Source: Rhodospirillales bacterium 69-11
Lineage (GTDB): Bacteria > Pseudomonadota > Alphaproteobacteria > Acetobacterales > Acetobacteraceae
DNA: 33,009 nt
NCBI GenBank assembly: GCA_001898425.1
Contig: MKTV01000105.1
Span: forward strand, 9,852 to 42,860
Reading direction: 5' to 3'
The notes under the pieces: generated by a model
Databases searched by the model: none
The model's input: the letters and a program-made list of their open reading frames with translations, nothing else
Told to the model about the DNA's origin: nothing
Made by a program: the position numbers and the translations under genes
In this document: piece by piece, positions 19,700 to 30,856 of the stretch
How the letters are laid out: the number at the start of each line of letters is the position of its first letter
Numbering within the stretch: position 1 is the first letter of the stretch

Positions 19700-20542
19700 T
19701 CAGTCCAGTCTCTCAACGACGAAGCCGCGTGCGTCCCAATGGCGGAATGGCGTGACGCCGAGCCGTCGGGGGGCAAAATGGAATCGATCGCACCATGCGG
19801 CAATGGTGGCCTTTTCCGCGTCCGGCGCGCAGTCATACGCAAGGTTCAGGATCACCCACGCGCCCCGGGGACGCAGTGCGCGCGCGATCTCGGCAGCAAG
19901 CACGTCCGCGAGGCCGGCCTGCACGACATAGGGAAGGCTGTCGACCGCGAGCACCAGATCGAGGCTGCGGTCCGCGATGCCGGCGAGATCGCGCCCCGAA
20001 CCCACCTCGAGGCGCAGGTTCGGGAGGCCGGCACAGCGGTGCCGCGCTTCCGCGATCATACCGGCGGACACATCGAGCCCGATCACCGACCGCGCCACCT
20101 GCGCGGTTGCCGGGATCAACCGCCCGATGCCGCAGCCGAGATCGAGCACATCCATGCCCGGCCGCAACCACGTCTCGCTCACCAGCCACTCGATCACTTC
20201 GCTCGTGGCAAGGTCGAGGCGCGCGGGATCGCCCAACGAGTAGAGTGCGACGCTGGCTTCCGGCGACACCGCGACCGCTCGATCGAACAGCAGGGCGATC
20301 GAACCGGGATCACGTGGCGCCGCATGCTCCACGCCTGCCACGGCGATCATGTGCTGCAGCCGAGCGATCCGATCGGTGTCGGCGCAGATCCGGTCGAGCG
20401 CGTACCAAGCCGCCGTGTCGGTCCGCGCCCGCTGGACACGTGTGCCCAACGTCGCCGGGGAGTCGCCCTGAAGCAGGCATTGCGCGATTGCGAGTTCCGG
20501 GGACAGCGCACCGGCCAGGCAGGTCGCGATCGGATCGCTCAT
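19700..20542 (-). CDS. Class I SAM-dependent methyltransferase
   Basis: A 280-residue protein from ATG 20542, which overlaps the stop of the preceding acyltransferase gene by 4 bp. A helical N-terminal region of about 120 residues is followed by the SAM-binding motif VLDLGCGIGRLIPATAQ, then VIGLDVSAGMIAEARHRC (motif II), LDLVLAVDSLPYVVQAG (motif IV area) and RALRPRGAWVILNLAY. It is the last gene of the glycan cassette. O- or N-methylation of a sugar or of an acyl group is plausible; the acceptor is unknown. Confidence 0.9.
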   Translation of the reverse strand: MSDPIATCLAGALSPELAIAQCLLQGDSPATLGTRVQRARTDTAAWYALDRICADTDRIARLQHMIAVAGVEHAAPRDPGSIALLFDRAVAVSPEASVALYSLGDPARLDLATSEVIEWLVSETWLRPGMDVLDLGCGIGRLIPATAQVARSVIGLDVSAGMIAEARHRCAGLPNLRLEVGSGRDLAGIADRSLDLVLAVDSLPYVVQAGLADVLAAEIARALRPRGAWVILNLAYDCAPDAEKATIAAWCDRFHFAPRRLGVTPFRHWDARGFVVERLD

Positions 20543-21507
20543 GCGGGGATGAAGCTGCGGCCGCGATTGTCGCGGTCCGCCGCGCCCCAGCGATACTTGT
20601 AGGACTCGGCGCCACGCAGGAAATGCGCCTCCGTGGCGCCCTCTTCGATCGCCTCTTCGAGCAGGTGTCCGATCAGCAGCGTACCCGGGCTCTCGAACCG
20701 ACGCGCCGGGTCGAAGCCGCCGAGGTAGAAATACAGCCGCTCCCGGTGACGCAGCGCGTGCACGATGCCGGCGGGTCGACCCTCGATCAGCACGGCCGTC
20801 AACCGCAGCACGCCGGCATCCAGCAAGGCGGGGGCGGCGAGGTGGTGGAAGCGCCGCACCGCCGGATCGGCGAGCACCCCGGGTTCCGCCCGCTCCTGCC
20901 AACGCGCGGCGTGCAGGGCCGCGAGCGTGTCGAGCCAGTGCGCCAGGGTGTCGTGATCCGCACGGACGCATTGTGCACCGCCGGCGCGATCGGCCCGATG
21001 CCGCGCCTGCCGGAGGTCACGCAGCATCGACCGGGGGATGGTGTCCGCAAGGGATCGTCGCAGCGGCAAGACGGGGCAGGGCGGCCCCGGCCATGCGTCT
21101 TCGGCCCAGTTCGGAGGCGGAGTTGTGCCGCGCAGGCTCGCACCGGGAGGAAGGTCCGGCAGGTCGCAACGTGTCCGCTCGCCTGCTTGCAGCGCCGCGT
21201 CGAGCAAGGCTGCGGCCGTGCCGCACGGCGCATCGTCGGTCAGCAGCAGATCGACGTAGTCCGTGATGCCGACTCCCATCGGCAGCAGCTTTTGCGCGTA
21301 GCGATACAACGGAAGGACACCGCACACCCCCACGGAGTTCGTTGCGATCGCAACTAATGGCGCGCCGGTGCCGAAAACCGTCCACCATGGCCGCAGCCAC
21401 GCGGGGGACTGGAACGGCGTAGCAGCAGGGGCACGGCGCCAGGCATCGGCCCAGGCCGGCCAGAAGGCGGCAAGCTCGTTCTCTCCGGTGAGGACCCGCA
21501 CCTTCAT
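20539..21507 (-). CDS. GNAT/BioF2-like acyltransferase (Acetyltransf_6)
   Basis: A 322-residue protein starting at ATG 21507, which overlaps the GT4 stop (ATGA). It opens KVRVLTGENELAAFWPAW and SPAWLRPWW, the N-terminal FemAB-like half, and has the double-GNAT C-terminal half with RPAGIVHALRHRERLYFYLGG and EEGATEAHFLRGAESYKYRW, a characteristic block of PF13480. Such proteins transfer acyl or amino-acyl groups and are common in polysaccharide loci (CelD-type). Likely role here: acylation of an amino sugar made by the cassette. Both ends are coupled by 4-bp overlaps. Confidence 0.9.
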   Translation of the reverse strand: MKVRVLTGENELAAFWPAWADAWRRAPAATPFQSPAWLRPWWTVFGTGAPLVAIATNSVGVCGVLPLYRYAQKLLPMGVGITDYVDLLLTDDAPCGTAAALLDAALQAGERTRCDLPDLPPGASLRGTTPPPNWAEDAWPGPPCPVLPLRRSLADTIPRSMLRDLRQARHRADRAGGAQCVRADHDTLAHWLDTLAALHAARWQERAEPGVLADPAVRRFHHLAAPALLDAGVLRLTAVLIEGRPAGIVHALRHRERLYFYLGGFDPARRFESPGTLLIGHLLEEAIEEGATEAHFLRGAESYKYRWGAADRDNRGRSFIPA

Positions 21508-22532
21508 CCGGCGAGCGCCGCGTGCAGCGCGAGATAGGTGTCGGTCATGCGCCGCGCGGAGAAACGCTCCTGCGCCTCCTGCCGGCAGAGCGCGCGGTCG
21601 ATGGTGCCGATCGCGCGAATGGCGTCCGCCATCGCTCGCGCGTCGGCCGCAAGGAATCCCGTACGGCCGTCGGCGACGATCTCCGGCAATGCGCCATTCG
21701 GCGTCGCAATGACGGGCGTCCCGCAAGCCATCGCCTCCATCGCAACGAGCGAACTCGTCTCGGCCGCCAGGCTCGGGATCAGCAGGCAGCGCGCCGCGGC
21801 CAGAAGCCGACGCTTGCGCGTGAAACTAACGGGCCCGATCCAACGGCGACGGGAATCGAGGCGAGGTTCCACTTCGTCGCGCAGGTAGGCGCGGTGCTCC
21901 GCATAGGGGAATGCCGCGCCGCCGATCAGCAACGGAATATCGGCGTCATGGACCGCGTCGAGCGCGAGGTGCTGTCCCTTCTCGGGACAGATCCGACCCA
22001 GCATGAGAGCGTAGCCGCGGCAGGCGTGGCGGGCCGCGCCCAATGCCTCCACGGGCACACCGTTGAGAACCGGTCCCACCAGCGACACGCCGGCGGGGCA
22101 GGCCCGCTGCTGGGCGTGCGAGACGCAGTTGAACCAGAGCTTCGCACGTGAGGCGCGCAGAGCCTGGGCCGGATACCAGTCCGGCGGCAGATGCAGCGTC
22201 ACCAGCGCGGGCGGACCCGAGTCCGGCAGGTAGGCCGGGAAGTCGATGCCGTGCAGATGCACGAGATCGACCTTCGGCAGCGCCGTCGCGATCGCCGCGC
22301 GAACCGCAGCGTAGCTGGCCGCACGCGCGGTCTCGTCGAGGTCGTGCGCCGGAAGCGGAGGAACGGCAATCAACTCACCCGCGACCTGCGATCCCGCGCA
22401 GGCAACGACGATCGATCGGTGACCTGCCGCGACCAGCGCGTGATCGACCATCGACAGCACCTGTTCCGCGCCGCCGATCGCATCGGGTCCGACCGGGGCG
22501 AACGGATAGGCGACGCTCAGGACCGTGCGCAT
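21504..22532 (-). CDS. Glycosyltransferase family 4
   Basis: A 342-residue GT-B enzyme. The N-terminal glycine-rich acceptor loop PVGPDAIGGAEQVLSMVDHAL and DLVHLHGIDFPAYL are present. The C-terminal donor domain has GYALMLGRICPEKGQHLALD, LLIPSLAAETSSLVAMEAMA and CGTPVIATPNGALPEIVADG, where the ExxxxxxxE-like nucleotide-sugar region of GT4 is seen. No membrane segment, so it is cytoplasmic or membrane-peripheral. It lies 36 bp after the glycosidase gene and overlaps the acyltransferase by 4 bp. Donor and acceptor sugars cannot be read. Confidence 0.93.
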   Translation of the reverse strand: MRTVLSVAYPFAPVGPDAIGGAEQVLSMVDHALVAAGHRSIVVACAGSQVAGELIAVPPLPAHDLDETARAASYAAVRAAIATALPKVDLVHLHGIDFPAYLPDSGPPALVTLHLPPDWYPAQALRASRAKLWFNCVSHAQQRACPAGVSLVGPVLNGVPVEALGAARHACRGYALMLGRICPEKGQHLALDAVHDADIPLLIGGAAFPYAEHRAYLRDEVEPRLDSRRRWIGPVSFTRKRRLLAAARCLLIPSLAAETSSLVAMEAMACGTPVIATPNGALPEIVADGRTGFLAADARAMADAIRAIGTIDRALCRQEAQERFSARRMTDTYLALHAALAG

Positions 22533-22568
22533 GCCGACACCCCGGGCGCGCGTGGCCGTCGCTCCTCC

Positions 22569-23537
22569 TCAATCGGAGGCGGCGACATCCGCGCGCTCGA
22601 ACGTGTCGCTTCGCTCCACACCCAGGCTCTGGCGCGGCGCCTCGACGGAACCACCGACATAGCGCCGGATCATGCGCGCGCAGAACTCCGCGAACTCCGC
22701 CGGCTCCTTCGGCGGGGCGGTGTAGTGGGGCCAGACACCCTTGTCTTCGGGGGTGAAGCAGAAGGTCACGGTGACGGCGAAATCCTCCAGCGCCTTCATC
22801 TGCCGGTCGAACCAGGCCTCGGCATTCGGGCGGTAGAAGTCTGCCCAGCTCAGGCCGGTGCGCAGGTAGGTGACGCCCAGATCCTTCAACGCCCGCACCG
22901 CATCGTCCAGCCGGTGATCCTCGAAGTGGAACCACTGGCAGATGCCCATGTCCGGCGTGAACTCGTTGAAGATCTTTGCAGCACGCTTCGGGCGGCCGTG
23001 CTCGTCGTACAGCCCCATATGGAAATGCCGGTAGTAGGACGAGCCCTCGGCTTCCTTGTGGCGCGTCGTCGCCGGCCAGGCGGCGGGCAGATCATAGAGG
23101 CTGTACCAGTGGATGCGCGGCGCGCGGCCTCGCAGCAGTTCGGCGCTGCGCCGCAGGCCCCATTCCTGCACCTCCTCCGCGCCGAATGTGGAGACGCCGA
23201 CTTCCGAAACCCAGACCGGAAGTTGCGTCGCGCCAGCGATCAGCTTCAGCTTGTCCGGCCACTCGTCGATCGACCAGTGGTTCCAGTCGAGCGGGAAGCC
23301 ATGCACCGCGACGGCGTCCATCGCGTCCAGCGCACCCTGGGAGGCGAGCAGCGCGAGGAAGTCCGGGTCGATCGGCGACATCCCGCCCAGCACGCGCGGC
23401 AGCCGCGGCGCCTCGGCCGCAATCGCCTCTCCGGCCAGCCGTGCCATGCGGGCGAAGATCGCCCAGTTCGGATCTGCCTCGAGGTCCCAATGCGACTTGT
23501 TGTTGGGCTCGTTCCAGATCATCGCCGCTTCGATCAT
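22569..23537 (-). CDS. GH-A (GH39-like) glycosidase with circularly permuted motif order
   Basis: A 322-residue protein, ATG 23537 overlapping the methyltransferase stop by 4 bp. It begins almost directly with the acid/base motif WNEPN (Glu10), then RVLGGMSPIDPDFL, DAVAVHGFPLDWN and the nucleophile motif VWVSEVG (Glu112). What is normally the start of a GH39 barrel follows only afterwards: GICQWFHFEDHRLDDAV (about 198-214), VTYLRTGLSWADFYRPN (222-238), VTVTFCFTPE (255-264) and EFAEFCARMIRRYV (281-294). In ordinary members this block precedes WNEPN. No signal peptide, so it acts in the cytoplasm, perhaps on glycan precursors. The upstream part of the frame belongs to the methyltransferase, so nothing is missing. 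Confidence 0.87.
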   Translation of the reverse strand: MIEAAMIWNEPNNKSHWDLEADPNWAIFARMARLAGEAIAAEAPRLPRVLGGMSPIDPDFLALLASQGALDAMDAVAVHGFPLDWNHWSIDEWPDKLKLIAGATQLPVWVSEVGVSTFGAEEVQEWGLRRSAELLRGRAPRIHWYSLYDLPAAWPATTRHKEAEGSSYYRHFHMGLYDEHGRPKRAAKIFNEFTPDMGICQWFHFEDHRLDDAVRALKDLGVTYLRTGLSWADFYRPNAEAWFDRQMKALEDFAVTVTFCFTPEDKGVWPHYTAPPKEPAEFAEFCARMIRRYVGGSVEAPRQSLGVERSDTFERADVAASD

Positions 23538-24328
23538 GCCTGGGTCCCCCGCGCCGGATAGACCGCGCCGTAGTCTGCGTCCGCCCGGTCCACGCGGCGG
23601 CAGAGATAGGTCTCCTCCTCCGGCCGGCTCAGGATGTCGAAGCCGGCGCTGCGCAGCATGGCCTCGGTGCCGGCTCGGTTGGGAGCCCACCAGTTGGTGT
23701 GATCGTGCGCGTAGCGGTGCTCGATGAAGTGCATCTTCGGGTATCCCGGATCGTCGAAATGCGCCGTCTCCGAGAAGTCGTAGTCCGCGGCGACCGGCGC
23801 GACTTCCTTGCTGCCGCGCTGCAACGATTGGAAGACCAACAGGTCGCGGGCCACGTGTTCGTGAACCAGGTCGAGCGCAAGCAGCGGATGCCGCAGGTGA
23901 TAGAAGACGCCGATGAAGAACACGATGTCGAACCGTTCGCCCAGGCTCGCGACGTCGTAGACCGACAGGCGGCGGAACTCGATATCCAGCCCTTCGACCT
24001 CGGCCGCGAAGCGGGCCTGCGCCAGGTAATCCTCGTCGAAGTCGACGCCCAGCACGCGATCGGCGCCGCGTCGCTTCATCTCCATCGAGAAGAAGCCGCC
24101 GTTGCAGCCGATGTCGAGCACGGTTTTCCCGCGCAGGTCGCGCGGCAGCGCGTCCGCGTAGTTGCGCCACTTGATCCCGGGATAGTCGCCCAGGAAGTGC
24201 TCCGGCGCGGTCCACACGCCCTTGAGCTGGATGTTGTGGAACCATGGTCCCAGTTCTGCCGCGCGCTGCCGGATCTGCTCCGGCGTCCAGTCACGCGGAT
24301 GCGATTCGGGTATCATGGGTCCATCCAT
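23534..24328 (-). CDS. SAM-dependent methyltransferase, TIGR04290-like
   Basis: A 264-residue protein; an in-frame ATG at 24316 is an alternative start. It shows PWFHNIQLKGVWTAPEHFLG, LRGKTVLDIGCNGGFFSMEM (motif I), RVLGVDFDEDYLAQARFAAE and FDIVFFIGVFYHLRHPLLAL. The N-terminal layout recalls CmoB/DUF1698 methyltransferases, but the group found in glycan loci of alphaproteobacteria (TIGR04290) fits better. The start lies within the 3' end of the nucleotidyltransferase gene (38-bp overlap), and the stop overlaps the glycosidase start. A sugar or lipid-linked sugar acceptor is likely. Confidence 0.9.
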   Translation of the reverse strand: MDGPMIPESHPRDWTPEQIRQRAAELGPWFHNIQLKGVWTAPEHFLGDYPGIKWRNYADALPRDLRGKTVLDIGCNGGFFSMEMKRRGADRVLGVDFDEDYLAQARFAAEVEGLDIEFRRLSVYDVASLGERFDIVFFIGVFYHLRHPLLALDLVHEHVARDLLVFQSLQRGSKEVAPVAADYDFSETAHFDDPGYPKMHFIEHRYAHDHTNWWAPNRAGTEAMLRSAGFDILSRPEEETYLCRRVDRADADYGAVYPARGTQA

Positions 24329-25100
24329 TCACGCCCCTCCTGGCGGCCGGCTGCACCGGCGGTTCTCCCTGCTGCGGGTCGGCCCCCAGAAGCCCGATGG
24401 CTTCGCGGTATCCACCGAGCGTGCCGACGTCGACGTAGCGCGTGCCGGCCGGGACGCCGCAGGCCACGCCACCCTCCGCGATCCACGCGTTGACCAGCGT
24501 GCCGAGATATTCGTCCTGCCGGTCACGCCGCAGCCAGAGCGCATGCAACGCATGCAGCACATGACCCGGCATCTTGAACGCGCCCCAGACCCAATCCGTG
24601 CGGGGCGCGCGCGCCTTGACCTCGATCGCACGCACCGTGCCGTCCGCATCGGTCAGCACGGCATCGAACAGCTCCGGCCGCTCCACCCGGAACAGCAGGA
24701 AGGACAGGCGATCGTCGGGAAGACGCGACAGCGCATCCTCCGGGAACCAGACGGTGTCTGGCAATCCGACCAGCACGGGCTCCTCCGGGCGGATCAGCGG
24801 CAAGGCGCGGAAGATCGCGTCGCACAATCCGCTCGCCTGGCTCTGGATGACGTAGGCGACGTCCATGCCGGCAACCGAGCCGCCGTAGTATTGCAGGATG
24901 TCGGACTTCCAGGGCGAGATCACGAAGCAGATCTTGGTGGCGCCGCCGCGGGCCATGCGCTCGACCAGGTACTCGCTGACGGCCTTGGGCCGTTCGATGC
25001 CGCTCGCATCCACCCGGGATCCGACGGGCAGCAGCTCCTTGGAAAAGGCGAGCGGCTGAATGCGCATGCCGTTGCCGGCCGCGGGGATGATGCCCCACAT
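24291..25100 (-). CDS. Sugar nucleotidyltransferase (NTP_transferase family)
   Basis: A 269-residue protein. The start is ATG 25100 (MWGIIPAAGNGMRIQPLAFS), followed by KELLPVG, the activating-Lys signature of RfbA/GlmU/GalU-type enzymes that make NDP-sugars from sugar-1-phosphates. Further pieces: RPKAVSEYLVERMARGG, VYVIQ-like AYVIQSQASGLCDAIFRA, LVGLPDTVWFPEDAL and RYVDVGTLGGYREAIG. The upstream open frame is a shadow of the CgeB-like gene. Its ATG shares one base with the previous stop (TGATG). No dehydratase or epimerase lies in the window, so the sugar made is unknown. Confidence 0.9.
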   Translation of the reverse strand: MWGIIPAAGNGMRIQPLAFSKELLPVGSRVDASGIERPKAVSEYLVERMARGGATKICFVISPWKSDILQYYGGSVAGMDVAYVIQSQASGLCDAIFRALPLIRPEEPVLVGLPDTVWFPEDALSRLPDDRLSFLLFRVERPELFDAVLTDADGTVRAIEVKARAPRTDWVWGAFKMPGHVLHALHALWLRRDRQDEYLGTLVNAWIAEGGVACGVPAGTRYVDVGTLGGYREAIGLLGADPQQGEPPVQPAARRGVNGWTHDTRIASA

Positions 25101-26176
25101 CAGCTGACCTCCGATGCGACGGCGGCTTCGAAGGCGGCGACCATCTGCCGCGCCCGGCGCTGGGCCGTGTGCTCGTCGAGCGTCCGCTCCCGTGCCCGCC
25201 GCGCGATGGCGTCGAGGTCGGACTGCGGGCGTGCGAGCGCATCGAGCGTGTCCTGCGTGTCGTCGGCGACCAGGATCTCGTCGCCCGGCTCGAAGAAGGC
25301 GGCCAGTCCCGGCCATCGGTCGGTCAGGATCGGCGCGCCGGACGCAGCGGCCTCGAACAGCCGGCCGGACGGACACCAGCCCGCCTCCGCCATCGCCTTG
25401 CGCGTGACGTTCAGCGTCAGGCGCGAGGAGGCGTAGAAGTCGGCGTGCTCCCCCGGCGGCAGGTGCCGGACGAAGAACACGTTGTCGGTCCAGGGGAAAT
25501 CCTTCGGATACATCGCCCCCGCGATGACGAACCGCTGCTCGGGGCGCTCCCGCGCCGGGTGGATGAACAAGCGTTCCAACGCAGGCTGCCGGTCGGCGGC
25601 GTAGGTGCCGATATAGGACAGGGAGGCCCGATACTGCGGCTGCGTCGTGCCGGGACGGTACAGATCCGGGTCGACCGATCCGTAGATGGGAACGACATGG
25701 CGGGCCCCCAGGCGGGTGCGCAGGGTCTCCAGCGTGGCACCCCCCGTGTAGCTGAGCACGAGGTCGAACTGGTCGAAGCCATCCGGCGGCACGTAGTCCA
25801 CCGTCTCACCGGCGTCGAGGCGCGCGAGCGTCACCGGCGTGTCGAGGTCGTAGAAGCACCGCAGGCCAGCGCGGCTGTGCAGCGCGACCGTGGTCGCGGC
25901 GGAGGCGTCGGGGCAGTAGGACGTGACCATGACCACGTCCGCCTCATCGGCTTCGTGCTGCGCGCGGACGGCATCCCACTCGCGATAGAGCACGAGCGCG
26001 CCGCCACCCGGCAGCGCGGTCAGGTCGCGATGTTCGGCGTAGTAGGGCACGTCGCGTTCGAAGAACGTCACGTGATGGCCGTCCGCGTGCAGGGCGCGGA
26101 TCAGGCCGCGCCACAGCGCCGCATGTCCATTCCCCCAGGACGAACTGACCGCCAGCCCGAAGATGACGATCTTCAT
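25100..26176 (-). CDS. CgeB-like glycosyltransferase (GT-B fold)
   Basis: A 358-residue protein from ATG 26176 (MKIVIFGLAVSSSWGNGHAA); a TTG two codons upstream is possible. Further signatures are VTFFERDVPYYAEHRDL, DVVMVTSYCPDAS, CFYDLDTPVTLARLD, LSYTGGATLETL and LSYIGTYAADRQPALERLF, typical of CgeB/DUF3880 glycosyltransferases. The donor domain has GWCPSGRLFEAAASGAPILT. It is the first gene of the tightly coupled cassette, 69 bp after the HAD gene, so the promoter may lie in that gap or further up before nhaA. Confidence 0.9.
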   Translation of the reverse strand: MKIVIFGLAVSSSWGNGHAALWRGLIRALHADGHHVTFFERDVPYYAEHRDLTALPGGGALVLYREWDAVRAQHEADEADVVMVTSYCPDASAATTVALHSRAGLRCFYDLDTPVTLARLDAGETVDYVPPDGFDQFDLVLSYTGGATLETLRTRLGARHVVPIYGSVDPDLYRPGTTQPQYRASLSYIGTYAADRQPALERLFIHPARERPEQRFVIAGAMYPKDFPWTDNVFFVRHLPPGEHADFYASSRLTLNVTRKAMAEAGWCPSGRLFEAAASGAPILTDRWPGLAAFFEPGDEILVADDTQDTLDALARPQSDLDAIARRARERTLDEHTAQRRARQMVAAFEAAVASEVS

Positions 26177-26245
26177 CTGCAACGCGCCATCCGCTCGCCC
26201 CCGGTCAACCGGCGGAAGAACGTATGAACGTTGGGGTCGGTTCCG

Positions 26246-26917
26246 TCAGGCCGTTGGCGCGAGTGGGCGCGGCCCGGCGGCACGGAGAGCCTCCTGCGCG
26301 GCCCACAGGTCGGGTACGACGGCAAGGCAGCGCCGACTGGCGCTGGATGGAGGCGTTGCCGCCACCATCAGCACGTGCAGGCCCGCCGCTTCGGCGGCGG
26401 CGACCCCGGTCGGCGAGTCCTCGATCGCCAGGCAGCGTGCCGGCTCGACCCCCAGGAGGGTGGTGGCGTGGCGAAACGAATCGGGGGCCGGCTTCCCGCG
26501 GGGCACGTCGTCCCGGGTCACGACATGGGCGAAGTATGACGTCAGCCCCGCCGATGCCAGGTGCCGGTGCGCCGTCCGGCGGCTCGCCGAGGTCGCGATC
26601 GCCTTGGGCTGCGGCAAGGTGCGGAGCAGGTCCAGCGCGCCGGGGCAGAGGGGCGGCGGGTCCGGCAGGATCGCCGCCCGATGCACGTAGTACGCGGCGA
26701 GGAAGTCGCCCACCGGGAAATCCGCGCCGAACCGTGCGCGAATGAGATCGGCCCGTTCGGGTGTCGCGACGCCCAGGAGCGTCGCGTAGAACCCGTCCGT
26801 CACGTGCATCCCGAACGTCGCCGCAGCCGCGAAGAAGGCGCGGCGATAGCTCGTCTCGGTATCGATCAGCGTGCCATCGAGATCGAACACGACTGCGTCG
26901 AATCGCTGTTTCGTCAC
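26246..26917 (-). CDS. HAD-family phosphatase/phosphoglucomutase-like hydrolase
   Basis: A 223-residue protein from a GTG start at 26917 that overlaps the nhaA stop (GTGA). HAD motifs: VVFDLDGTLIDTE (motif I, nucleophile and acid/base Asp), ATSASRR (motif II), RGKPAPDSF (motif III Lys) and AIEDSPTGVAAAEAAGL (motif IV). The cap domain between motifs I and II is the helical type of beta-phosphoglucomutase and sugar-phosphate phosphatases. It could supply or remove a sugar phosphate for the downstream nucleotidyltransferase, but coupling to an antiporter gives no functional clue. Confidence 0.92.
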   Translation of the reverse strand: MTKQRFDAVVFDLDGTLIDTETSYRRAFFAAAATFGMHVTDGFYATLLGVATPERADLIRARFGADFPVGDFLAAYYVHRAAILPDPPPLCPGALDLLRTLPQPKAIATSASRRTAHRHLASAGLTSYFAHVVTRDDVPRGKPAPDSFRHATTLLGVEPARCLAIEDSPTGVAAAEAAGLHVLMVAATPPSSASRRCLAVVPDLWAAQEALRAAGPRPLAPTA

Positions 26918-28218: not shown

Positions 28219-29121
28219 ATGCGAGACATTCAGGCGGAGTGGATGGCGGCCATGCGGTGCGGCGACTGGGATCGCGCCTGGGCGGTGAACGATGTGGTGC
28301 TGGCGGGGTGCCATCCGGCTGAACGTGACGACCCGCGGCTGCCTTACCACCTGCGCTGGGTCTGGGACGGGCGGCCATTCGACGGGCGCGACGTGCTGGT
28401 GCGCTGCTATCACGGTCTTGGCGATACGCTGCAGTTCGCGCGCTATCTCGCCCCGCTGCGGACGCGCGCCGCTTTCGTGACGGTGGAGGCGCAACCCGCC
28501 CTGGTGCCGCTGCTGCAGGACATCCCGGGGGTCGACCGGATCGTGCCCTTCTCGCTCGCAGCGCCGCTGCCGCCCGCCGCCTGCGACATCGAGATCATGG
28601 AACTGCCGCATGCCCTGCGGCTGCCGCCGGAAGCGGTGCCGCCACCACCCCTGCGGGTCGCGGCCGCACCGGGCCTCGCCAACACGACCGGACTCTGCTG
28701 GGCCGGGGGAGACTGGGACGCCGCGCGTGCCATCCCGCCCTCGCTGCTCCACCCGCTCTGCCGCGCGCGGCGGGTGATGAGCCTGCGGATCGGGAAGACA
28801 GATCTCCCGGTGATCAATCCGGACGGGTGCGAGGTGGCCATCGAGGACACGGCATCCCTGATCGCGGGCCTCGGCCTGGTGATCACGATCGACAGCATGG
28901 TCGCGCATCTCGCGGGAACGCTGGGTCGCCCCACCTGGGTGCTGCTGAAGCACGACGCCGACTGGCGGTGGATGGCAGGACGGAGCGACTCGCCCTGGTA
29001 TCCCACCGTTCGCCTGTTCCGGCAGGTGCGGCCAGCAGCGTGGGGCCCGGTGCTCGCGGCGGTCCTTGCGGCGGTGGCCGAACGGGATGCGGCGCACCCG
29101 GGGCTCAGGGCTGCCGGTTGA
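28219..29121 (+). CDS. GT9-like glycosyltransferase, C-terminal module of TPR-GT proteins
   Basis: A 300-residue protein from ATG 28219 (MRDIQAEWMAAMRCGDWDRA); the long open frame upstream is antisense to nhaA. It shows RCYHGLGDTLQFARYLAPLR, AFVTVEAQPALVPLLQDIPG, IEDTASLIAGLGLVITIDSM, VAHLAGTLGRPTWVLL and DWRWMAGRSDSPWYPTVRLF. This is the block found at the C terminus of TPR-repeat proteins related to heptosyltransferase (GT9). The TPR repeats are missing; only one TPR-like helix pair remains at the N terminus. It is divergent from nhaA and overlaps the 3' end of the phosphatase gene by 17 bp. Confidence 0.88.
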   Translation: MRDIQAEWMAAMRCGDWDRAWAVNDVVLAGCHPAERDDPRLPYHLRWVWDGRPFDGRDVLVRCYHGLGDTLQFARYLAPLRTRAAFVTVEAQPALVPLLQDIPGVDRIVPFSLAAPLPPAACDIEIMELPHALRLPPEAVPPPPLRVAAAPGLANTTGLCWAGGDWDAARAIPPSLLHPLCRARRVMSLRIGKTDLPVINPDGCEVAIEDTASLIAGLGLVITIDSMVAHLAGTLGRPTWVLLKHDADWRWMAGRSDSPWYPTVRLFRQVRPAAWGPVLAAVLAAVAERDAAHPGLRAAG

Positions 29122-29689
29122 CCGCACGCACCCGGGCGTCGCGGTCGTTCAGCACGATCTCGCTGACCGATCCCGCGCCGATTTCCAGCCGCTGCATGAG
29201 GTCGAGCGGGCTTCCCAGCACGTGGCACAGCACCGCCTTGATGATGTCCGCGTGACTCACGATGACGACCGCCCCCTCCGGATGGCGGACGTGCCAGTCC
29301 CACAGGCCCGCGACCGCGCGCGCCTGCACCGCCAGCATCGGCTCGCCGGGCGATGGGGCCGTGCTGCGGAACTGATTCCACGCTTGCCAGGCGGCATCGT
29401 CGTGCAATTCGGTGAAGGAGCGGCCTTCCCAGGCCCCGAACGCGATCTCCGTGAACGCCGCGTCCCGCTGGAGATCCAGGCGGAGACGCGCGGCGATCGG
29501 AGCCGCGGTGTCGACCGCGCGACGCACCGGGGAGGTCACGACCGCCGCGATCCGCGCCGCTGCGAAGCCCTCCGCGAGGCGTTCGGCCTGATGCTGTCCC
29601 GCGGGCGACAGGGTATGGTCGGCGCGGCCCCCCAGTGCACGGTCGACCAGCGGGTACGTCCCGTGCCGCACCAAGTGGAAGGTCGTCAT
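29105..29689 (-). CDS. Histidine phosphatase (phosphoglycerate mutase-like)
   Basis: A 194-residue protein from ATG 29689, which shares one base with the ino1 stop (TGATG). It has the catalytic FHLVRHGTY (phospho-accepting His), TSPVRRAVDTAAPIA, the acid residue in FTEIAFGAWEGRSFTEL, and VIVSHADIIKAVLCHVLG (second His). Such enzymes dephosphorylate small phosphoesters. Translational coupling to myo-inositol-1-phosphate synthase makes inositol-1-phosphate a reasonable guess as substrate, although that step is normally done by SuhB-type enzymes. Specificity is not visible. Confidence 0.92.
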   Translation of the reverse strand: MTTFHLVRHGTYPLVDRALGGRADHTLSPAGQHQAERLAEGFAAARIAAVVTSPVRRAVDTAAPIAARLRLDLQRDAAFTEIAFGAWEGRSFTELHDDAAWQAWNQFRSTAPSPGEPMLAVQARAVAGLWDWHVRHPEGAVVIVSHADIIKAVLCHVLGSPLDLMQRLEIGAGSVSEIVLNDRDARVRAVNRQP

Positions 29690-30756
29690 CAGCCCTGGAT
29701 GAAGGCTTCGGTGCGCTCCCGCGCTTCGTGGTCGGTGAATTGCTGCGGGGGGCTCTTCATGAAGTAGCTGGACGGGCCGATCAGCGCGCCGCCGATGCCG
29801 CGGTCCAGCGCGAGCCGCGCACAGCGGATGGCGTCGATGACCACGCCCGCGGAGTTGGGGGAATCCCACACCTCGAGCTTCAGTTCGCACGACAGAGGCA
29901 CGTTGCCGAACGTCGTGCCCTCGACGCGGATATGCGCCCATTTCCGATCCGTCAGCCACGGCACGTGATCGCTCGGCCCGACATGCACCGAATCGGCTGG
30001 CAGGGGCTCCCCGAGCAGGCTGGTGACCGCCTGGGTCTTGGAGATCTTCTTCGATTCGAGCCGCTCGCGTTCCAGCATGTTCGCGAAGTCGGTGTTGCCG
30101 CCGAAATTGAGCTGGTACGTCCGATCGACGCGCACGCCGCGCTCATGGAACAGCGTGACCAGCGTGCGGTGCAGGATGGTGGCGCCAAGCTGGGACTTGA
30201 TGTCGTCGCCGACGATCGGCAGGCCGCGCTCCTCGAAGCGCGCGCGCCATTGCGGATCCGAGGCGATGAACACCGGAATGCAATTGACGAATGCACATCC
30301 GGCCGCCAGCGCCTGCTCGGCGTACCAGCGCGTCGCCTGTTCGGAGCCGACCGGAAGGTAGGAGACCAGCACCTGCGCCTCGGCCCGCCGCAGGATCGCG
30401 GCCACGTCGACCGGCGGGGCATCGCTCTCGGCCACGATCTCCCGGAGATAGCGGCCGATGCCGTCCATCGTGGGGCCGCGCTGCACGGTCACGCCGGTGC
30501 GCGGGACACGCGCGAAGACCTGGGTATTGTTGGGTTCGGCGCCGATCGCCTCCGCCAGGTCCCGGCCGACCTTGGTACGCGCGACGTCGAACGCCGCCAC
30601 GACCTCGATATCGCCGACGTGATAGCCACCCAGCGCGACATGCATGAGTCCAGGCACGGTCTCGTCGACGGGCGCATCACGATAGAAGGTCAATCCCTGG
30701 ACGAGGGACGACGCACAATTGCCGACACCGACGATCGCGACCCTGATCTTCCGCAC
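29689..30756 (-). CDS. ino1: myo-Inositol-1-phosphate synthase
   Basis: Converts glucose-6-phosphate to inositol-1-phosphate with NAD. The GTG at 30756 has GGAGGAG 8 bases upstream and opens [20 protein letters not shown], the NAD-binding loop; a TTG at 30792 lacks such support. It has 355 residues, the short form known from actinobacteria and archaea. Other signatures: [54 protein letters not shown] and [13 protein letters not shown], with conserved catalytic lysines in DDIKSQ and [10 protein letters not shown] histidine phosphatase is coupled downstream. A 13-bp dyad shared with the pgi upstream region lies 101 bp before the start. Confidence 0.95.
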
Positions 30757-30856
30757 GCACGTCTCCTCCGCGGGAAGGAACAAACCTTCCAACTAACACC
30801 TGGGGCGCCGGGAGGTTGCTCGCCGACCGTGGACGGGCTGGCGTGAGCACGCATGA

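Follow-up and report, generated by a model that had tools for sequence, protein, structure and literature searches.

A circularly permuted clan GH-A type glycosidase encoded among glycan-building genes in several bacterial phyla

PslG, a glycoside hydrolase family 39 (GH39) enzyme from the Psl operon of Pseudomonas aeruginosa, is encoded by a gene that is co-transcribed with polysaccharide genes and is located mainly at the inner membrane, partly in the periplasm; its hydrolytic activity is described as important for polysaccharide production, and the need of a polysaccharide cluster for a glycosidase gene as elusive (PMC9075953). It is also the nearest solved relative, by sequence, of the protein described here, pGH, which is encoded on the reverse strand at 22569..23537 (open reading frame of 322 amino acids, ATG start) of a 33,009-nucleotide stretch of DNA from Rhodospirillales bacterium 69-11 (contig MKTV01000105.1, positions 9,852 to 42,860), the whole of which we refer to as the window. 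The two proteins have an equivalent catalytic glutamate pair, and the genes of both lie with polysaccharide genes. Unlike pGH, PslG has the normal strand order, a longer solved chain (416 residues) and a membrane location, pGH being probably cytosolic judging by its sequence; a structure alignment of PslG with a normal-order relative of pGH gave ~17% identity.

The GH70 glucansucrases are alpha-glucan enzymes that belong to another clan than pGH and use another chemistry. Like pGH, they carry a natural circular permutation of the glycosidase barrel (clan GH-H; PMC9732880). The alpha-amylase MalS (GH13_19) is likewise a glycosidase with circular permutation, but one of domains in a GH13 enzyme and not of a clan GH-A barrel (PMC10223318). 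The deacetylase domain of PgaB, a permuted CE4 domain, is a permuted carbohydrate enzyme required for a biofilm polysaccharide (work cited in PMC10485009), although its enzyme class and reaction are different. Among the top matches of searches of the open-licence PMC literature, no natural circular permutation in clan GH-A was found. Barrel permutation is already known from GH70; what appears to be new here is a glycosidase of clan GH-A type with a permuted barrel that is widely conserved.

The N terminus of pGH, MIEAAMIWNEPNN, is the strand that bears the acid/base glutamate of clan GH-A glycosidases. This residue, Glu10 in WNEPNN (codon 23508..23510, reverse strand), and the nucleophile, Glu112 in SEVG or WVSEVG (23202..23204, reverse strand), are invariant both in the 80 rows of alignment A1, made of the window protein and 79 homologues with 58–92% identity to it, and in 16 normal-order relatives. 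Many further residues are invariant across A1, including W8–N13 and H79–P82. The segments that usually lead into the acid/base strand come after both glutamates, at residues 198–294: ICQWFHFED (strand 1) and then, within residues 221–294, GVTYLRTGLSW (strand 2), VTVTFCFTPE (strand 3) and the helix FAEFCARMIRRY. An earlier note on this DNA, made from the letters and their reading frames, had placed the two catalytic motifs and the displaced strands in this way, and our reading of the frame agrees with it. Because the window protein and 79 homologues align across it, the permuted order is neither chance nor an assembly slip.

Comparison with PslG and with normal-order relatives (L112–L119, L139, L150 and others; L-numbers label loci and G-numbers genomes) gave the swapped order directly. 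The A1 family profile matched PslG twice (joint E=2.4e-7), with profile positions 200–295 on chain residues 25–130 (11.8 bits, i-Evalue 0.96) and positions 3–167 on residues 132–304 (20.3 bits). The earlier note had suggested a search with swapped halves; here the C-terminal part of pGH falls on the start of the PslG barrel, rather than on a non-barrel accessory domain, and the N-terminal part follows it. The PslG glutamates that align with Glu10 and Glu112 stand 111 residues apart, as do its reported key residues, E165 and E276 (PMC9075953). In its native order the window protein matched PslG with E=0.03 over residues 3–114; once rotated to put strand 1 first, it did so with E=3.7e-9 over a single 208-residue stretch. 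In relatives found by genome search, query residues ~190–295 matched first and ~3–195 after. When all 294 rotations of pGH were compared with a hidden Markov model built from nine normal-order relatives, the optimum was a cut at 194, which gave one alignment over profile positions 3–292 (160.7 bits), against 102.6 bits for the best domain in the native order, where two domains jointly reached 147.9 bits. As controls, 500 shuffles yielded 453 scored rows, all at or below 2.1 bits, and two normal-order proteins had their optimum at cut 0. Aligning family with family by HHalign, in 7-residue steps, raised the score from 234.2 at cut 0 to 358.7 at cut 196. Each half of pGH is homologous to part of a single protein, but the order of the two is exchanged, the mark of a circular permutation.

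The AlphaFold model of pGH is a full barrel of eight alternating strands and helices (pTM 0.85), the (beta/alpha)8 fold of clan GH-A. Together with the sequence comparisons it gives a strand order along the chain of 4-5-6-7-8-1-2-3 instead of the usual 1 to 8, and it is because of this order that we use the term clan GH-A type and do not call pGH a plain clan member. Residues 1–193 (22959..23537, reverse strand) hold the normally C-terminal strands b4–b8 and helices a4–a8, in agreement with the alignment to PslG 132–304; residues 194–294 (22656..22958, reverse strand) hold the normally N-terminal b1–b3 and a1–a3, in agreement with PslG 25–130 and the cut at 194. A tail, variable among homologues and of low confidence in the model, makes up residues 295–322 (22572..22655, reverse strand). 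N9–E10, an invariant Asn-Glu pair, is placed right behind strand 2–7 (strand 4), and the invariant E112 lies within strand 108–113 (strand 7), the clan GH-A positions of acid/base and nucleophile. Model residues 1–145 contain only the five strands b4–b8, b1–b3 being supplied by residues 198–260, and in the model residues 1–190 alone make no complete barrel. The sequence comparisons and the model therefore both bear out the permuted GH-A barrel proposed in the earlier note. On this combined evidence, pGH makes a full-length barrel of the clan GH-A type, predicted to start at strand 4 and to end after helix 3. Its former termini are linked, in the model, by a turn at residues 193–198, and by alignment and prediction it retains the two catalytic glutamates together with the active-site motifs common to normal-order relatives.

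The starting point at strand 4 is conserved. An ATG or GTG stands just ahead of WNEPNN in 104 of the 106 distinct proteins (script count); for the remaining two, L069 and L071, the aligner had trimmed the start, and the sequence context has a GTG just one or two codons further up. In-frame stops occur no more than 5 codons upstream in 12/106 and no more than 15 codons upstream in 23/106, and 35/106 are at most 298 residues long. In the window, the start of pGH overlaps the stop of a TIGR04290 family methyltransferase gene (23534..24328, reverse strand; NCBIfam 376 bits, cut-off 300) by 4 bases (ATGA). The earlier note was right that a methyltransferase is encoded upstream; it had put it in the frame of pGH, whereas the gene uses a different frame and the same-frame sequence upstream of pGH is its out-of-frame shadow.

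Assignment to a family is less sharp. No Pfam model reached its cut-off on native or rotated pGH (only PF11790 scored, 13.9 / 15.1 bits against a cut-off of 21), and for this reason we describe pGH as nearest to PslG and not as a GH39 member. The tie to GH39 through that solved member (E=3.7e-9 rotated, 2.4e-7 by profile) upholds the 'GH39-like' of the earlier note as far as the nearest solved relative goes; no match to a curated family model places pGH in GH39.

Apart from its permuted homologues, the closest relatives of pGH that we found are of normal order. Those examined and aligned form the N-terminal domain of a fusion with an NAD-dependent epimerase, and the fusion genes (e.g. L114, L139) lie in sister clusters with related glycosyltransferases and epimerases, the same wider cluster type as that of pGH. 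The two forms are 34–39% identical over pGH residues ~4–190 and ~32% overall (90/282 aligned), with 38 invariant columns, active-site motifs included, shared between the permuted proteins and the 16 relatives. They differ in the strand order, 1–8 in the fused form, and in the fusion itself. The epimerase part presumably resembles CDP-paratose 2-epimerases.

We searched 24 genomes with a fused gene for the permuted gene. It was absent from 18, of which 17 have an intact NEPNN and one, G370, a damaged fused gene. The remaining 6 all combine the permuted gene with a fused domain that has decayed, as does G156, the seventh case of decay. Thus, 0/17 genomes with intact fusions have the permuted gene, and 7/7 decayed fusions are in genomes that have it. 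NEPNN is lost in all seven decayed domains; the nucleophile glutamate is replaced in five, its motif was not found in one, and in one it is kept. Fused domains without NEPNN and with a conserved epimerase half (L152–L156, L159, L167) form a natural series of domain decay. In the opposite direction, a search with the fused protein covered 61 of the 67 permuted-gene genomes collected; 60 had the epimerase, and in 58 of them the match began at query residue 259 or beyond. The exceptions are G156, with its decayed domain, and G876, where the fused gene is partial, at a contig edge, and shows the C-terminal part of the glycosidase domain, apparently intact. On a tree of 53 epimerases, the standalone state must have changed 6 times, and well-supported branches require at least 4 of these changes; for decay the corresponding numbers are 3 and 2.

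The permuted family is widespread. In a scan of genome contigs, at least 583 relatives were encoded among the 594 pattern matches listed, a figure that may include normal-order forms. By record title, the best 80 of these relatives include members of the Acetobacteraceae, other Pseudomonadota, Myxococcus, Corallococcus, Acidobacteria, Verrucomicrobiota and Gemmatimonadales. An order-level search matched 57/395 genomes (48 permuted, 9 normal order) and a class-level search 14/385 (8 permuted, with G000 and G524 already counted, and 6 normal order). In a phylum sample, TIGR04290 was present in 10/299 genomes, nine of them with the permuted gene and one (G658) with the fused gene. Homologues keep the permuted order, with glycan genes around them, and we infer that a single permutation event founded the family. 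Several Sinorhizobium plasmid records label the pGH homologue as a beta-xylosidase. Two Sinorhizobium meliloti records (pSymB and pRmeGR4d) bear such a gene set: that on pSymB (L175) has the beta-xylosidase label and several genes in pieces, and the second (L176) has the set whole. In one record the S. meliloti cluster is labelled merely as single glycosyltransferases, an epimerase, Gfo/Idh and a beta-xylosidase; its location is a megaplasmid, in an organism amenable to genetic work.

Like the genes of PslG-type biosynthetic hydrolases, that of pGH is encoded among glycan-building genes. On the same strand of the window, the TIGR04290 methyltransferase gene is preceded by genes for a sugar-phosphate nucleotidyltransferase (24291..25130, PF00483, start probably near 25100), the glycosyltransferase GTa (25100..26182, PF13524) and a HAD-family phosphatase (26246..26917), and pGH is followed by those for a GT4-type glycosyltransferase (21504..22532), an Acetyltransf_6 (GNAT) protein (20539..21726, PF13480, true start probably downstream of the frame's start) and a second methyltransferase (19700..20560). 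Further away, also on the reverse strand, are a histidine phosphatase (29105..29683; tblastn and open reading frame, family via homologue L029) and myo-inositol-1-phosphate synthase (MIPS; 29689..30792, start uncertain; tblastn 74% to the L064 homologue and open reading frame, family via homologue). The MIPS homologue scored 533 bits with TIGR03450, below the cut-off of 638. MIPS with a histidine phosphatase alongside occurs in the window (29105–30792), L141–L146, L175 and L176. Sister-cluster proteins are encoded on another contig of the same genome: two epimerases, one GT4 and three of the PF13524 family.

Neighbours were counted over the 80 loci of the best relatives, in several of which the contig ends near the pGH gene. 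The closest same-strand upstream gene (within 400 bases, among the genes sought) encodes the TIGR04290 methyltransferase in 58 loci; MIPS and the nucleotidyltransferase account for 6 loci each, and GTa and the histidine phosphatase for 1 each, so that one of five biosynthetic-type genes is the immediate neighbour in 72/80; 8 have none. Recurrent in the clusters are PF13524 glycosyltransferases, nucleotidyltransferase, PIG-L deacetylase, GT4, GNAT, MIPS, histidine phosphatase, epimerases and Gfo/Idh. A PIG-L deacetylase gene is near the glycosidase in 25/80 loci and in a same-genus genome (L146:9611-10303); none is shown in the window, where the 22532-22569 gap beside pGH was compared. A 578-residue protein (L065:10509-12245) without a Pfam match has similar proteins in 14/80 loci, and a protein with an LVRCYHGLGDT stretch (28228-29049, forward strand) adjoins the window cluster, with similar ones in 17/80; for its homologue at L033:1952-3043, Pfam gave no match. 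With a MIPS resembling INO1, GT4-type enzymes and a PIG-L deacetylase, the cluster presumably has something in common with mycothiol-type pathways (INO1, MshA, MshB), from which it differs in adding the TIGR04290 methyltransferase, PF13524 glycosyltransferases, epimerases and the glycosidase, and for a thiol there is no evidence. Finally, MIPS is present in 34/36 permuted-gene genomes but only 2/18 fusion genomes (absent from 16; Fisher 1e-9, relatedness ignored), and TIGR04290 in 36/36 versus 9/18.

From these observations, we think it likely that pGH acts in the cytosol, as a retaining beta-glycosidase or a transglycosidase, in the assembly of a methylated, probably inositol-containing glycan, and that the permuted gene displaced the fused domain. 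Given the conserved glutamate pair and general knowledge of clan GH-A, Glu10 as acid/base and Glu112 as nucleophile would carry out a retaining double displacement at a beta-glycosidic bond, by which the enzyme may trim an intermediate (as a hydrolase) or transglycosylate it during glycan assembly. A cytosolic site of action is probable because pGH starts at strand 4, leaving no room for a signal sequence; its place within the cluster argues for action on an assembly intermediate, and the MIPS association suggests that the methylated product contains inositol. The permuted gene would travel with the methyltransferase, MIPS and phosphatase genes, and appears to have repeatedly displaced the normal-order domain fused to the epimerase in sister clusters. 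A further proposal, which we put forward tentatively, is that an inositol-containing methylated glycan pathway in several phyla, one not described before, has the permuted barrel as its signature enzyme: released from the epimerase fusion by the permutation, the glycosidase would have taken on another role, such as hydrolysing an inositol glycoside or transglycosylating onto one, and the fused normal-order domain would then have decayed, in at least two independent cases.

Several points weigh against this interpretation. The activity and substrate of pGH are deduced from sequence, the C-terminal stretch matching PslG is weak taken alone (11.8 bits, i-Evalue 0.96), the alignment under the AlphaFold model consists of close relatives (Neff 1.8) and residues 155–167 of the model are of low confidence. 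On the side of displacement, the decayed fusion of G1118 retains the glutamate at the nucleophile position, G370 has a damaged fused gene yet no permuted gene, G876 may hold both forms, with an apparently intact fused C-terminal part beside the permuted gene, and the search of permuted-gene genomes with the fused protein would miss any fused domain whose decay had gone too far for a match. The MIPS association comes from 36 of the 67 permuted-gene genomes and is uncorrected for relatedness; by the same association, the permuted enzyme may have another task than the fused domain.

The reverse, that the permuted enzyme is a drop-in replacement performing the same reaction as the fused domain, with the MIPS link merely a co-transfer of neighbours, is a real possibility, if short of an even chance. 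The 38 common invariant residues, the shared sister-cluster genes and the decay of the fused domain in seven genomes bearing the permuted gene all fit it, whereas the contrast in MIPS (34/36 against 2/18) and an identity between the two forms of only ~32% do not. That pGH is instead a scavenging or catabolic beta-xylosidase that just adjoins biosynthetic genes is suggested by its label in the Sinorhizobium plasmid records; we regard it as unlikely, given the methyltransferase immediately upstream in 58/80 loci, one of the five biosynthetic-type genes there in 72/80, the 4-base overlap in the window and the lack of space for a signal sequence ahead of strand 4. Dead barrels are evidently tolerated, as some fused domains in the same cluster type have lost catalytic residues, but it is quite improbable that pGH is such a catalytically dead binding or scaffold protein, with both glutamates and the surrounding motifs invariant over the 80 rows of A1. 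An ordinary glycosidase whose start was misplaced, whose frame had shifted or whose N terminus had been lost, for which the open frame upstream in the window (558 aa) could speak, is already contradicted and has next to no chance of being right, as strands 1–3 are found at the C terminus, the start position is kept in homologues, with stops close upstream in 23/106, and a complete barrel is predicted; the earlier note had likewise set aside a lost N terminus.

With relatives in several bacterial phyla, the permuted form is no single-genome curiosity. As permuted and normal forms occur in sister clusters, and fused forms have decayed beside the permuted one, the benefit of the permutation is directly testable. 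pGH also touches on the question, described as elusive for PslG (PMC9075953), of the need for an intracellular glycosidase in a polysaccharide cluster.
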